Position numbers and translations under genes: made by a program. Source: Nitrospirota bacterium (lineage in GTDB: Bacteria; Nitrospirota; Thermodesulfovibrionia; Thermodesulfovibrionales; Magnetobacteriaceae). From it: a stretch of 42,680 nucleotides of DNA. Below are positions 16,008-22,662 of the stretch, in pieces; position 1 is the first letter of the stretch, and each line of letters opens with the position of its first letter. The stretch is from positions 1-42,680 of the forward strand of contig JADFYL010000006.1 of the NCBI GenBank assembly GCA_015233045.1, in the 5' to 3' direction. The notes beneath the pieces were generated by a model. That model was not told the origin of the DNA. It ran no database searches and was given only the letters and a program-made list of their open reading frames with translations.

Positions 16008-17174
16008 CTAGTTTGAGCCGGGTTTATAGTCTGGTTTATAATCAGTTATTTGGCCGCCGTCCACTGCCGTGCCTCCAGTGATAATCACCTCGCCATCTGT
16101 GACTCCAGAGAGGACTTCCATCGTGCCTGTTGCAGGGAATTTTCTTCCCGTGGTAATCAGTCTGTATGTTGCAACGCCGTTTTCGTCCACGACATAGACG
16201 CCGCGAAGCTGTCCTTTTTCCACAACCGCTGTCTCCGGCACGTTGAGTGTTTGGCGTGGGCTGCCCTTAATGGAGGCAACGGCATAGAGGCCGCTTTTCA
16301 GGCCGCTTTTGGGCACATCTTCTGCGATAGCTATTTTGACAGAAAATGTCCTCGCCGCGGGGTCAATGTACTGGCTCACCTCGGTAATCGTGCCCTTTGT
16401 TTTAAGCGCCGGGGTATCAAGTGAGATGTCAACCTGTGTGCCCTTTTTTATATCTGCCACAATGCCCTCGTCAACATTAATGATTACGTTATAGGAGGAG
16501 GTGTCTTCAACCGTTATAAGCGGCACGCCGGGGGCTGCCATAGCGCCCGCGTCCACCATTTTTTTCCCTACTATACCGTTAAATGGCGCGGTTATTGTCG
16601 TATAGCCCTGAAATACATTCGCCTCACTGAGGGCGGATCGGGCACGCCGCTGTGCCGCCTCGGCCTGCTTATAGGAAAGGTCAGCAATCTTTCTCTTTGA
16701 ATCTATCTCGTTGAACTCCTGTTTGGATATGGCCTTTTCCTCATAGAGGTTTTTGAATCTTTCATAGGTCGTATCTGTAAGGAGCTTGTTCTCCTCTGCC
16801 ATGTTAAGGGCTGCCTGTGCCTCCACAACGCCAGCGCTGGCTTGGGCTGACTTATTGGCAAACTCACCGGCTTCGATGCTAAGGAGCGTTTGGCCTGCCT
16901 TAACCCTGTCACCCTCTTTGACGGCAATTGACTTTATCCCGCCCATTACCTTTGAGGACAAGACGGCGATGTTTTCGGCCTTCACTGTGCCGCTGATTTC
17001 ATAAACGTCATTTACGGTGTTTTTTGTTATCTTAGCCGTCTTAACGCCCGTAATAGCGGGGCGGGCTATCTCCTTTGTTCCGGGCTTTATCTTGTCGCCG
17101 CAGCCGTAAACAACGAGGGCCAGGCATATGAACGCAAACGTCTTAATAAGTGCACATGTCTTAAAATGCCTCAT
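16008..17174 (-). CDS. RND periplasmic adaptor (MFP) lipoprotein
   Basis: This 388-aa protein has an N-terminal signal with a plausible but atypical lipobox (LVVYGC, Cys25). The barrel-sandwich/lipoyl halves are VLSSKVMGGIKSIAVKEGDRVKAGQTLLSIEAGE and FNGIVGKKMVDAGAMAAPGVPLITVED. They flank an Ala/Glu-rich helical hairpin with coiled-coil character. Beta-barrel and membrane-proximal domains follow (SGLYAVASIKGSPRQTLNVPETAVV). It bridges the RND pump and the TolC channel. The start overlaps the TolC stop (TAATG), so translation is coupled. Confidence 0.94.
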   Translation of the reverse strand: MRHFKTCALIKTFAFICLALVVYGCGDKIKPGTKEIARPAITGVKTAKITKNTVNDVYEISGTVKAENIAVLSSKVMGGIKSIAVKEGDRVKAGQTLLSIEAGEFANKSAQASAGVVEAQAALNMAEENKLLTDTTYERFKNLYEEKAISKQEFNEIDSKRKIADLSYKQAEAAQRRARSALSEANVFQGYTTITAPFNGIVGKKMVDAGAMAAPGVPLITVEDTSSYNVIINVDEGIVADIKKGTQVDISLDTPALKTKGTITEVSQYIDPAARTFSVKIAIAEDVPKSGLKSGLYAVASIKGSPRQTLNVPETAVVEKGQLRGVYVVDENGVATYRLITTGRKFPATGTMEVLSGVTDGEVIITGGTAVDGGQITDYKPDYKPGSN

Positions 17175-18571
17175 TAGTTCCTCCCTGAATTGTCAACCCC
17201 AAAAAACCTGAGAATCCTGCCGCCCGTGTATTCAAGCATGGCGGCCTCAATGAGGTACTGCCCCTCTGCCGCCGCGGCGTTGGCCCTTGCCTTATCGAGG
17301 GCTGTCTGCCCGTCTAACAGTGATACCATTGGGGCAAGGGAATTGGCGTATCGTTTCGCAATAAGTCGAACGCCCTCCTCCGCGGCATTAAGGGTGTCGC
17401 GCGATAGTTCAAGCCTCCTTTGCGCCTCCTCTAATGATATGAGGGCCTCGTAAACCTCATATGCGGCCTGTTGTTTAATCCCGAGAAGGAGCTGCCCCGT
17501 CTCCTCGGCCTCAAACCTTGCCTTTGCCAGCTTTGATTCTCTCTGCAGGCCATCAAACGCGTTTAGTTTCATAAAAATCCCTACCTGATAGCTCTTTCCC
17601 TCGTCGCCAAAAGGATACCTGTGTTCGTTCAACTGATAATTGCCGCCAAGGGCTACAGAGGGAAGATATTCGGCCTTCGCGGCTTTCACAGATTGTTTGG
17701 CATTCTCATGGTTTTTCTCCATCGCGGCCACGTCTGAGCGGCTCATAGAACCCTTTAGATACTCATCGGGTGTCGCAGGGGGTGGAAAGGTAATCTTTTC
17801 ATCGGCGCTGTCATAGGACTGTTCTGAGCCTATCATCAGGCCAAGGGAGCGTTTCGCAAGGTTTAGGTTTTTCCCGGCGGTAACAAGGCGCATCTGAGCC
17901 TCTGACAGTGCCGTTTGTGCCTGCAAGACATCAGAAAGAAGCCCTGTGCCGGTGTCAAGGCGCACCTTCGCTATACGCATATGTTCTTTGGCGTCCTCAA
18001 GGCCTTTAGCGCTTGCGGCATAAAATGCCTTTGCCGTCTTTACGCCTGTGTATGCCTTAAATACGTCGAGGACGGTCATCTCCTCAAGACGTGTTTGCTG
18101 AAATCCCTTGCCCTCGGCGCGCACCCTCGCCATATCAATGGCTAAATATGCCTTCATAGAAAACACGGGCATTTCAAAATTAAAGCTGGTACGATAGTTG
18201 TTAATCGGGGCTGGGTCTTTCAAATCGGCTAAATCGGCGCTCGTAAAGCGCCCCTGGTCAAGTTTGGACATGAAAAAATACGTCGGGTTGTTAGTGTTGC
18301 TGTACCCCTCCTGCACTTCAAGCCTCGGTAGCAGACCACCCCATGCGATAGATACATCTTTCCCCATGGCCTCAACCGCCCATTTGCCTGCCCTGAGGCG
18401 ATGATTGCCCCTTAGGGCAGCCTCTACGGCCTCTTTCAGGGTTATAACACTGGACGGCTGTTCGTTGGGTTGGCAATATGCGGGGCATACGTATGAGCTA
18501 AGAAATATGACAAGGAAAAGTGCAGCAACCGCCGCCCCCGACGATGCACATATGGTGTTTTGATTCAGCAT
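17174..18571 (-). CDS. TolC-family outer-membrane efflux protein
   Basis: This 465-aa protein has a hydrophobic signal (AAVAALFLVIFLSSYVCPAYC) after about 13 polar residues. Two outer-membrane efflux repeats follow: SVITLKEAVEAALRGNHRLRAG and EGYSN in the first half, and SMSRSDVAAMEKNHENAKQS with the YLPSVALGGNYQL strand in the second. Long Ala/Glu/Arg helices form the periplasmic tunnel. It is the first gene of the three-component pump operon on the minus strand. The consensus promoter at 18583-18612 leaves a leader of only about 4-5 bases. Confidence 0.94.
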   Translation of the reverse strand: MLNQNTICASSGAAVAALFLVIFLSSYVCPAYCQPNEQPSSVITLKEAVEAALRGNHRLRAGKWAVEAMGKDVSIAWGGLLPRLEVQEGYSNTNNPTYFFMSKLDQGRFTSADLADLKDPAPINNYRTSFNFEMPVFSMKAYLAIDMARVRAEGKGFQQTRLEEMTVLDVFKAYTGVKTAKAFYAASAKGLEDAKEHMRIAKVRLDTGTGLLSDVLQAQTALSEAQMRLVTAGKNLNLAKRSLGLMIGSEQSYDSADEKITFPPPATPDEYLKGSMSRSDVAAMEKNHENAKQSVKAAKAEYLPSVALGGNYQLNEHRYPFGDEGKSYQVGIFMKLNAFDGLQRESKLAKARFEAEETGQLLLGIKQQAAYEVYEALISLEEAQRRLELSRDTLNAAEEGVRLIAKRYANSLAPMVSLLDGQTALDKARANAAAAEGQYLIEAAMLEYTGGRILRFFGVDNSGRN

Positions 18572-18649: not shown

Positions 18650-19252
18650 CTAGCCCCGTTTCGCGTTTTTGATTTCACGCACAAGGTCTGCAATTGTGTC
18701 AATCGGCCCTGAAAGCAGGGTGTGGTAGCTGCCGACATCGCGCGGGCAGTGGGCGTCGCTTGCGTAGATGCGTGGCAGGTTGCGCTGTGTGGCAAGTTTC
18801 ACGGCAAGGGCCTGTGCGGTTTGTGAGGTGTTTGAGCTGTCAACCTCAACGGCGTCAATATCGAGACGGTAACAGTTATTGCCGCATTCCATGCTGAAAC
18901 GAAATGGATGGGCGGCGACAATTGCGGCTTCACGCCTTCGCGCAATACCAATCAGTTCCTTAACAGGCATGTTATAGCGCAGGCCGTCTATCTCGTCCAG
19001 CCCGTAAACAAGGAAATGCCCCTCAAGGCACGAGACCTCAATACCCGCCAGCAGACGAAGCTGCCCCCCAGCCCACTGCTGCAGCTCATCAATCTCCTGC
19101 CCTGACCAAATCGTATCATGGTCAGTAAATACAAGGACATCTATGCCCGCGTTTATGGCGGCCTCAATAGCCTCGTGCGGAGTGGTGGTGCTGCACGGCG
19201 AAAACGGGTGGGTGTGGACATGCATATCCACTTTTAATAATCGGCTGCTCAT
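18650..19252 (-). CDS. PHP-domain metal-dependent phosphoesterase-like protein
   Basis: The start at complement 19252 (MSSRLLKVDMHVHTHPFSPC) is chosen because the longer open frame upstream is a shadow of the cysteine-rich gene ending at 19260. Metal ligands of the PHP domain are visible in order: HVHTH, FTDHDT, VAAHPFR and YASDAHCPRDVG. The 200-residue length fits small PHP proteins of the YciV/RnaseAM-like type, which hydrolyse phosphoesters. GHFLVYGLDEIDGLRYNMPV matches the typical insertion of this subgroup. The substrate is unknown. It lies 7 bases downstream of the Cys-rich gene and forms a two-gene operon with it. Confidence 0.88.
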   Translation of the reverse strand: MSSRLLKVDMHVHTHPFSPCSTTTPHEAIEAAINAGIDVLVFTDHDTIWSGQEIDELQQWAGGQLRLLAGIEVSCLEGHFLVYGLDEIDGLRYNMPVKELIGIARRREAAIVAAHPFRFSMECGNNCYRLDIDAVEVDSSNTSQTAQALAVKLATQRNLPRIYASDAHCPRDVGSYHTLLSGPIDTIADLVREIKNAKRG

Positions 19253-19259
19253 TGATTTC

Positions 19260-19412
19260 TCAACGTCCCGCTTTCTTATTCCCAAACAGAGCGGGCTGAA
19301 CATAAAGCGCGTACTCGGCGCACCCTTGAACATATCTGCATCGTTTACAGACCTCTATATACTTATAGCACTGTCGTTTGGAGCAGAAGAGCTTATCCCT
19401 GTTTACAGCCAT
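19260..19412 (-). CDS. 50-aa cysteine-rich mini-protein
   Basis: This protein was read directly on the reverse strand. ATG is at complement 19412 and TGA ends at 19260. It reads MAVNRDKLFCSKRQCYKYIE, VCKRCRYVQGCAEYALYVQP and ALFGNKKAGR. Five cysteines are spaced C10-x4-C15-x6-C22-x2-C25-x5-C31, a pattern suited to zinc or an iron-sulfur cluster. Basic and aromatic residues are prominent (YKYIEVCKRCRYVQ). There is no signal peptide. A perfect extended -10 (TGGTATAAT) lies 9 bases before the ATG and no Shine-Dalgarno is visible, so the mRNA is probably leaderless or nearly so. It is followed after 7 bases by the PHP gene. I recognise no named family. Confidence 0.75.
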   Translation of the reverse strand: MAVNRDKLFCSKRQCYKYIEVCKRCRYVQGCAEYALYVQPALFGNKKAGR

Positions 19413-19421
19413 GCTGGTTTG

Positions 19422-19430
19422 ATTATACCA
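19422..19430 (-). promoter_or_regulatory. extended -10 promoter element for the Cys-rich/PHP operon
   Basis: The minus strand reads TGGTATAAT, ending 9 bases before the ATG at 19412. There is no recognisable -35 at the expected distance, as is typical for extended -10 promoters. Confidence 0.65.
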
Positions 19431-20397: not shown

Positions 20398-22662
20398 ATG
20401 AAAATTCACGTAACTTTTTCGGGACTCGCCGCCGGCAACATAGGAGACGAGGCAATGATGAAGGGGTTCTTATCCATTCATCCACTGCCCGAAGGCACTA
20501 CCATTGAGGTCTGGGACGCCAAATCCGAGGCCATCGCCCAACTCCCCCCCACGTACAGGTATATCAATTACTCTGACACAGAGGCATGTAACGCCGCCTC
20601 GCTCTCGGCTGATTATGTGTTGATAGTTGGGGCTACGATAGTCACAGATATGCTTGGCACAGAGTGGCCGCTTAATATACTTGGCGGCAAGTACGCCCTC
20701 TGCCACGCTGCCGGTATCCCCATTCACGCAGTCGGCATTGGCGTGGATAAGCTCCATTCAGACGAGGCGGTTCAATTGTTCAATAGGGGATTTCTGCCCT
20801 TTGAAACATGGACAGTGCGCTCTGAAAGGAGCAGGAAAAACCTTTTCACTCTCGGCGTGCACCCGGGGCGCGTTGTTGCCGCGGCAGACCTCGCGTGGCT
20901 CACCCCAACGCAGGATGTTGATAAACAGTGGGCAGCCCAATACCTCGCCGCCCTCGGCGTTAAAGAGGGCATACCCATTGTAGGCGTAAACATAGTCAAC
21001 GAGAAGTGGAAAGACGACAACGCCATTAAAATGGCGGCGGCCACCGCCCTCGACTGGATATGCTCAGAGTTGAAGTGGCAGGTGGTTTTCTTTTGCAACG
21101 AGACCAGAGAGGGTGAATATTTCGATAAAGAGGCAACCCGCGCCACGGCGGCGTTTATGAAGAGCCAACCAGTCATAGCGCTAAACCAGTATTTCACGCC
21201 GGAGCAGATGATTGCGCTGCTTTCGTGCTGCAAACTGGCCATATCGTGGCGCTATCATTTTACCGTCTTCAGCGCACTTGGCGGCGCGCTTGCCATATCA
21301 GTTCTCAGGGGCGAAAAGTTGACTGAGCTTTCTGATGAGCTTAACGGCCTTAATCTTGGGACGCCCGAATCGCTGACAAGTGAAAAAATCAGGGATTCTA
21401 TCGTTCAGGCCATCGGTAATTACGCAACACTGAAATACAGGCAGGACGTCGCGGTTGACGCCCTCAGGCAGAGGTGCAGGTTTAACACTTATTTTATTGA
21501 CAAACTCAGGCCGAACAGCACTCATCTGACTGTGGAGACCCTCCCCCCCGCGCCGTTTGGATTGGTACGCTACAAGGAGGCCATCACCGCCCCCCCAAAA
21601 GCCGGTAAAGAATACGCCGTAACCGTAATCGTCTCCACATATATGTCAGGGGACTTTATAGGCGAATGCCTCAATGGCCTCAAAGGGCAGACGATTTGGC
21701 AGGAAATTGAGGTAATCGTAATTGACGCAGCCTCCCCGCAGGGTGAACAGGCAATCGTTACTGAGTTTCAAAAAGAAAATCCTAATATTACGTATGTGAA
21801 AACCGGCCAAAAGGTCAGTATCTACGCCGCGTGGAACATAGGGCTTAGGCTGGCCGGAGGCAGGTACATTACTGTGTTAAGCACAAACGACAGACTTCGC
21901 GGTGACGCCCTTGAGATTATGTCGCAAACCCTTGACAATCGCCCTGATATAGCGCTCGTCTATGGCGATTCGTATATGACAACAACCCCGCACGAGAGCT
22001 TTGAGCGGCACACGGGCAGCCCCTCTATGGTGTGGCCGGCGTACCAGTACGAAGATTTGCTAAAGACCTGCCTCATTGGACCTCATCCCATGTGGCGTAA
22101 ATCCGCATCGGTGGCAACAGGGTTTTTCGATGAGACATACACCTCAAACGGCGACCAGGAGTACTGGCTTCGAATGGGTGAGCGCTTTGAGTTCCTCCAC
22201 ATCGCGGAGTTTACCGGCCTGTATTGGCATAACCCGCAGTCTCTTTCAATGAGCGGCGGCATACCGGAGACCCACAGGGCGCAGGCCTTGTATCAGAAGC
22301 GCTATGTTGATAGGCTGAAACAGAGGGTTATTCTGACCGGAGCTGACCGGCCTGTGTATGTATGGGGCATCGGGCAGCTTGCCCTCATTACAAATCACAT
22401 GCTGGCGAATCTCGGTGTCCCTGTCAGCGGGTTTATCAGTGACTGTCCGGACAGCACGTTTGCGACATTGCCCGTTTTAGGACGGGAGCTTATACTTGGA
22501 CCGGGAGGCCAACGCCCGTTTATCGTAATCGCCAAGGAAGATGGTGATAAGACAATCAAACCCCTGCTTACCGGGGCAGGATACATCGCCCGCGAGGACT
22601 TTTGGACAAATATCTATGAGTTAAGCTGGGTATGGGATTTACATAATCCGATTGAGCAATAA
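20398..22662 (+). CDS. three-module fusion: polysaccharide pyruvyl transferase-like, GT2 glycosyltransferase, Rossmann-like C-terminus
   Basis: This is a 754-aa protein. Residues 1 to about 370 resemble polysaccharide pyruvyl transferases: AGNIGDEAMMKGF at 12-24, HAVGIGVDKLHS, VVAAADLAWLTP, CKLAISWRYHFTVFSALGG. Residues about 402-640 form a GT-A family 2 glycosyltransferase (VTVIVSTYMSGDFIGECLNG, EVIVIDAASPQ, WNIGLRLAGGRYITVLSTND, HPMWRKSA, NGDQEYWLRMG). Here the usual DxD is represented by STND. Residues 651-754 (RPVYVWGIGQLALITNHMLA, FISDCPDSTFATLPVLG) look like a Rossmann sugar-modifying N-terminal domain of the PglD type. The combination suggests stepwise addition and decoration of a glycan residue by one cytoplasmic polypeptide. 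Module boundaries are approximate. Confidence 0.82.
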   Translation: MKIHVTFSGLAAGNIGDEAMMKGFLSIHPLPEGTTIEVWDAKSEAIAQLPPTYRYINYSDTEACNAASLSADYVLIVGATIVTDMLGTEWPLNILGGKYALCHAAGIPIHAVGIGVDKLHSDEAVQLFNRGFLPFETWTVRSERSRKNLFTLGVHPGRVVAAADLAWLTPTQDVDKQWAAQYLAALGVKEGIPIVGVNIVNEKWKDDNAIKMAAATALDWICSELKWQVVFFCNETREGEYFDKEATRATAAFMKSQPVIALNQYFTPEQMIALLSCCKLAISWRYHFTVFSALGGALAISVLRGEKLTELSDELNGLNLGTPESLTSEKIRDSIVQAIGNYATLKYRQDVAVDALRQRCRFNTYFIDKLRPNSTHLTVETLPPAPFGLVRYKEAITAPPKAGKEYAVTVIVSTYMSGDFIGECLNGLKGQTIWQEIEVIVIDAASPQGEQAIVTEFQKENPNITYVKTGQKVSIYAAWNIGLRLAGGRYITVLSTNDRLRGDALEIMSQTLDNRPDIALVYGDSYMTTTPHESFERHTGSPSMVWPAYQYEDLLKTCLIGPHPMWRKSASVATGFFDETYTSNGDQEYWLRMGERFEFLHIAEFTGLYWHNPQSLSMSGGIPETHRAQALYQKRYVDRLKQRVILTGADRPVYVWGIGQLALITNHMLANLGVPVSGFISDCPDSTFATLPVLGRELILGPGGQRPFIVIAKEDGDKTIKPLLTGAGYIAREDFWTNIYELSWVWDLHNPIEQ

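Follow-up and report, generated by a model that had tools for sequence, protein, structure and literature searches.

A 50-residue cysteine protein gene paired with a PHP phosphoesterase gene in Magnetobacteriaceae

In EndoIII/MutY, AddB/Cas4, and WhiB proteins, a fourth cysteine is followed by the arrangement C-x2-C-x5-C, and these proteins carry a [4Fe-4S] cluster. The iron-sulfur loop of EndoIII/MutY (HhH-GPD) has the spacing C-x6-C-x2-C-x5-C, and the iron-sulfur staple of AddB/Cas4/Dna2 consists of one distant cysteine plus C-x2-C-x5-C. On the PHP side, we know of no small cysteine partner of TM0559 or RNase AM/YciV. Our literature search found no link among PHP enzymes, iron-sulfur, and small proteins and nothing on unannotated cysteine-rich small proteins. 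Here we describe a 50-amino-acid (aa) protein with a similar cysteine order, encoded directly upstream of a PHP phosphoesterase gene.

The small gene and its PHP neighbor

The window, by which we mean the whole 42,680-nt stretch of DNA analyzed, contains the following features at this locus.

18650..19252, (-) strand: gene for a 200-aa PHP phosphoesterase (PF02811 and PF13263), co-directional with the small gene and 7 nt downstream of it
19253..19333, (-) strand: spurious N-terminal part of the longest PHP frame, which shares DNA with the small gene in a different frame; not conserved
19260..19412, (-) strand: gene for the 50-aa cysteine protein, MAVNRDKLFCSKRQCYKYIEVCKRCRYVQGCAEYALYVQPALFGNKKAGR, stop included, read from 19412 to 19260
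19422..19430, (-) strand: extended -10 element, TGGTATAAT, 9 nt 5' of the small-gene ATG

The first-pass annotation had described a complete 50-aa frame here with five cysteines spaced x4/x6/x2/x5, and we found the frame, its coordinates, and the spacing as described. C10, C22, C25, and C31 are the candidates for core ligands, and C15 is a lineage-specific extra. Two further claims also held: the stop codon lies 7 nt ahead of the PHP ATG at 19252, and the gene has its own extended -10 element at 19430 to 19422. The small gene had also been proposed to explain a false N-terminal extension of PHP. Consistently with this, the start of the longest PHP open reading frame (19333) lies inside the small gene in a different frame. 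In G001, a relative from the same genus, the PHP frame is closed immediately before the 200-aa start, leaving an open frame of exactly 200 aa, and we therefore judged the extension not to be conserved.

The small gene shows coding constraint. Between the window and locus L002, there were no changes at codon positions 1 and 2 and five at position 3, and the closest within-genus pairs differ mostly at third positions. For the four pairs with unsaturated dS, dN and dS were 0 and 0.207, 0.020 and 0.309, 0.141 and 0.963, and 0.198 and 0.974. Thus, dN/dS is about 0 to 0.2 within the genus, with synonymous change far exceeding nonsynonymous change. The first-pass annotation had named two observations that would speak against the gene, an absence of coding constraint and homologues without conserved cysteines. 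Neither was seen; dN/dS was low, and the cysteines are kept in homologues. A six-frame search of the window gave one occurrence of the pattern C-x11-C-x2/3-C-x5-C, compared to 0.08 expected from mononucleotide shuffling. The frame is short, and the AlphaFold model of the protein is poor (pLDDT, 54), as might be expected of a chance or decayed open reading frame. That explanation is countered by the dN/dS values, the orthologues, the exact cysteine spacing, and the PHP linkage; we regard it as practically excluded and consider it ruled out by the comparative data. We conclude that the 50-aa frame is a genuine coding gene. A gene this short can escape ordinary gene-length cutoffs.

The promoter element recurs in relatives. 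In the host genus, a box reading TG-N-TATAAT, or close to it, lies 9 to 12 nt ahead of the ATG, and several genomes of another family, f13, have TGGCATAAT or TGCCATAAT 7 to 9 nt ahead of it. Altogether, extended -10 boxes about 7 to 12 nt 5' of the small-gene ATG were seen in the window and at L020 to L024, L028, L033, L034, and L059 to L062, which span several genera. If transcription starts about 7 nt after the box, as we assumed, the leader would be 0 to 5 nt. These sequences thus predict, for the host genus and f13, a small-gene mRNA that is leaderless or almost so. Genomes of genus g3 have a longer leader.

The PHP protein scored above the cutoffs of both PF02811 and PF13263, which places it among the PHP proteins. 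Its metal motifs (HxH, TxHD, GxEV, AHP, and SDxH) are conserved, and judged by these motifs the enzyme appears catalytically intact. The best matches of its structure model (pLDDT, 91) were TM0559 (2anu) and the PHP domain of RNase AM (7ug9), both with an E value of about 1e-9. Assignment as RNase AM itself was rejected, as the protein scored 42.7 bits against an equivalog cutoff of 375 (NF047791). The CehA/McbA-type metallohydrolase model (NF038032) was a near miss, at 74.3 bits against a cutoff of 80.

Elsewhere in the window, genes for an outer membrane efflux protein and an HlyD/CusB-type membrane fusion protein (16008 to 18571, (-) strand) lie just 3' of PHP on the same strand and are not kept beside PHP in relatives. 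A single 754-aa protein encoded at 20398 to 22662 ((+) strand) combines polysaccharide pyruvyl transferase (PF04230) and family 2 glycosyltransferase (PF00535) domains.

Linkage and distribution of the family

Of 19 Magnetobacteriaceae genomes, 15 contain an orthologue that has kept all five cysteines. In all 15, an orthologous PHP gene (43 to 100% identity) lies directly 3' of the small gene on the same strand. The linkage, whose conservation the first-pass annotation had proposed to check, is thus borne out in Magnetobacteriaceae but not outside, where relatives lie away from PHP. Among the loci examined, the gap between the two genes ranges from -8 to about +76 nt; a 4-nt ATGA overlap occurs at g3 loci L008, L009, L010, and L027 and at L023. 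Of the four genomes without the small gene, two are incomplete (75% and 56%), and no PHP match was seen in them either. The other two, G010 and G012, are well covered and contain only a distant PHP (33 to 34% identity) with no such small cysteine ORF upstream; nor was one found upstream of the order's more distant PHP genes. Within the family, then, neither gene occurs without the other, apart from the distant PHP homologues. Twelve loci from the family, each up to 12 kb long, were compared. PHP is the only gene kept beside the small gene in all of them, in otherwise rearranged surroundings; a few have a response-regulator gene or a gene for a small membrane protein in common. A branch (support, 66/89) in a tree of 23 PHPs has all the linked ones on the same side, so the pairing need have been gained only once. 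Linkage required one change on the tree, and none of 500 shuffles was as low.

At L023/L125 (G004:C69:23946-24610), in a relative from the host genus, PHP is split by a frameshift, with two-frame matches overlapping at residues 18 to 51, and the small gene is intact. The split may be an assembly error or a pseudogene.

Using profile A3, we found relatives in 49 of the 176 genomes of the order, in 22 of its 85 genera. All 38 positives among 396 genomes sampled across the phylum belong to the order. Since the order holds at most 176 of those 396, the profile search found no relative in at least 220 Nitrospirota genomes outside it. When 84,980 species were scanned for one short core motif as a peptide pattern, the confirmed relatives were all from Nitrospirota. 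Plasmids, phages, and viral contigs gave no match. No named family fits in Pfam, NCBIfam, PHROGs, PADLOC, or the PDB sequences, where a profile search with the small protein also returned nothing; this agrees with the earlier suggestion that the pattern has no name. As judged by these searches, the proteins form an unnamed family confined, among the genomes searched, to one Nitrospirota order.

The family core is C-x11-C-x2/3-C-x5-C followed by Y..Y..P.LF. All 46 members listed have the four cysteines with the exact x11 and x5 spacings. The middle spacing is x2 in Magnetobacteriaceae and x3 (CxxxC) in most members of families f10 and f12 and in f4. Every PHP-linked member has C15, as do most members in f13, but many f10 and f12 members lack it. 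The five-cysteine pattern of the first-pass annotation thus stands for the window protein and the PHP-linked members but not for the whole family, in which four cysteines are invariant. In the alignment, Y18 and P40 are conserved and K17 and Y37 nearly so. The PHP-linked proteins have a net charge of +6 to +9. We found no conserved neighbor for the f10, f12, f13, and f4 members, which are solo genes and not near PHP. We therefore take the module to be autonomous and its association with PHP to be either derived or specific to one lineage. One solo f12 relative (L051/L058, G235:C42) has, 35 nt 3', an ORF that by eye resembles a HAD-type nucleotidase.

In Magnetobacteriaceae (family f1), there is also a paralogous subfamily, again of tiny Cys4 proteins, with the consensus CERYExLSEI..C..CE....C..Y. 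Its loci include G000:C34:8684-8830 ((-) strand; L063, L128), L127, L131 to L136, and L144, and in G000 and G001 the gene directly adjoins a gene for a family 1 glycoside hydrolase or overlaps it. A profile built on either subfamily retrieves members of the other. One member of the paralogous subfamily matches Ycf34 (PF10718) weakly over the cysteine stretch (E value, 0.016, below the cutoff). We rejected membership in Ycf34, as 20 relatives gave no PF10718 match over the cutoff and the small genes were not among the matches listed.

Proposed cofactor and role of the small protein

The small protein is probably metal or iron-sulfur binding. By analogy rather than homology, its cysteine order, which resembles that of EndoIII/MutY, AddB/Cas4, and WhiB, makes [4Fe-4S] the more likely cofactor than zinc. 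The explanation that we favor, tentatively and at just under an even chance, is an operon of two genes for a mini-metalloprotein, preferably iron-sulfur, and PHP. In it, the four core cysteines of a basic 50-aa protein would hold a [4Fe-4S] cluster or, less likely, a zinc ion. The protein would be an autonomous module, as its solo relatives outside Magnetobacteriaceae suggest. In Magnetobacteriaceae, its gene would have become translationally coupled to PHP, so that both proteins are made together. The small protein would then act as an accessory that responds to metal or redox state; it would bind nucleic acid or PHP itself and tune the enzyme or its access to substrate. The coding status, conservation, linkage, and intact PHP motifs are shown by the data. 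Co-expression points to the small protein serving PHP as an accessory or a sensor in Magnetobacteriaceae; we infer the cofactor, the nucleic acid binding, and the physical partnership, and an operon alone does not prove that the two proteins interact. PHP does not appear to be obligatory for the small protein, since outside Magnetobacteriaceae the gene lies away from PHP with no conserved partner found. The CxxxC of most f10 and f12 members and the poor AlphaFold model of the small protein are points against this explanation, and the mostly acidic paralogous subfamily argues against a shared nucleic acid role. A more specific version, in which an undescribed Nitrospirota-specific family of stand-alone [4Fe-4S] redox or iron sensors, made from a leaderless message, switches PHP, seems to us quite improbable.

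Four invariant cysteines, a strongly basic core, and a PHP partner whose fold is akin to that of a 5'-3' exoribonuclease would also suit a zinc-binding mini-protein, in which a Cys4 knuckle provides a stable fold and the protein serves as a nucleic acid-binding adaptor for PHP, with no redox chemistry. However, it is unusual for a zinc knuckle to end in C-x5-C and to vary between CxxC and CxxxC in its middle pair, as seen here. No zinc family was significant in Pfam, and we consider this alternative possible but on the doubtful side. Passive co-transcription, with the small protein having its own housekeeping role, such as electron transfer or gene regulation, fits the solo relatives, which share no neighbors, and the predicted promoter close to the ATG. 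It accounts poorly for a linkage kept in 15 of 15 genomes despite surrounding rearrangement, for the several overlapping stop and start codons, and for the finding that neither gene occurs in the family without the other, distant PHP homologues excepted; we think it unlikely. WhiB was the best Pfam match of the small protein (residues 13 to 39; E value, 0.052; 14.6 bits against a cutoff of 23.6), and both share C-x2-C-x5-C followed by tyrosine. Nevertheless, PF02467 gave no match over the cutoff in 20 genomes and did not single out the small gene, only one copy of which was among the matches listed (E value, 0.6). G[VI]WGG is absent from the small-protein alignment, and with it the WhiB combination of that turn and a basic tail. 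Membership in WhiB, below the cutoff singly and unsupported in whole-genome scans, was rejected, and a WhiB-like iron-sulfur transcription regulator is very improbable.

These genes add an undescribed family of proteins below the usual length cutoffs, in a lineage, including the magnetotactic Magnetobacteriaceae, for which genomes are nearly the only source of knowledge. Because the pairing with an intact PHP enzyme is fixed, a function for both genes can be tested directly. If the cofactor is iron-sulfur, then, to our knowledge, few autonomous Cys4 cluster carriers would be smaller than these proteins, and they would be a first candidate iron-sulfur partner of a PHP enzyme.

Comparison with described systems

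The PHP partner resembles TM0559 (2anu) and RNase AM/YciV (7ug9) in its fold and intact metal motifs but is only 18 to 21% identical to them in the structure alignment. Like WhiB (PF02467), the small protein is very small and has four cysteines ending in C-x2-C-x5-C (x3 in most f10 and f12 members and in f4), then a tyrosine-containing stretch. Unlike WhiB, its first cysteine is just 11 residues off, it has no G[VI]WGG, and it is not found in Actinobacteria. Compared to the EndoIII/MutY loop, C15-x6-C22-x2-C25-x5-C31 is an exact match in the PHP-linked group. However, C15 is dispensable, being lost in many f10 and f12 relatives, whereas C10 is invariant, and the 50-aa protein stands alone with no HhH-GPD domain. 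The AddB/Cas4/Dna2 staple has the same cysteine order, but the small protein has no nuclease domain and its first cysteine is only 11 residues away.
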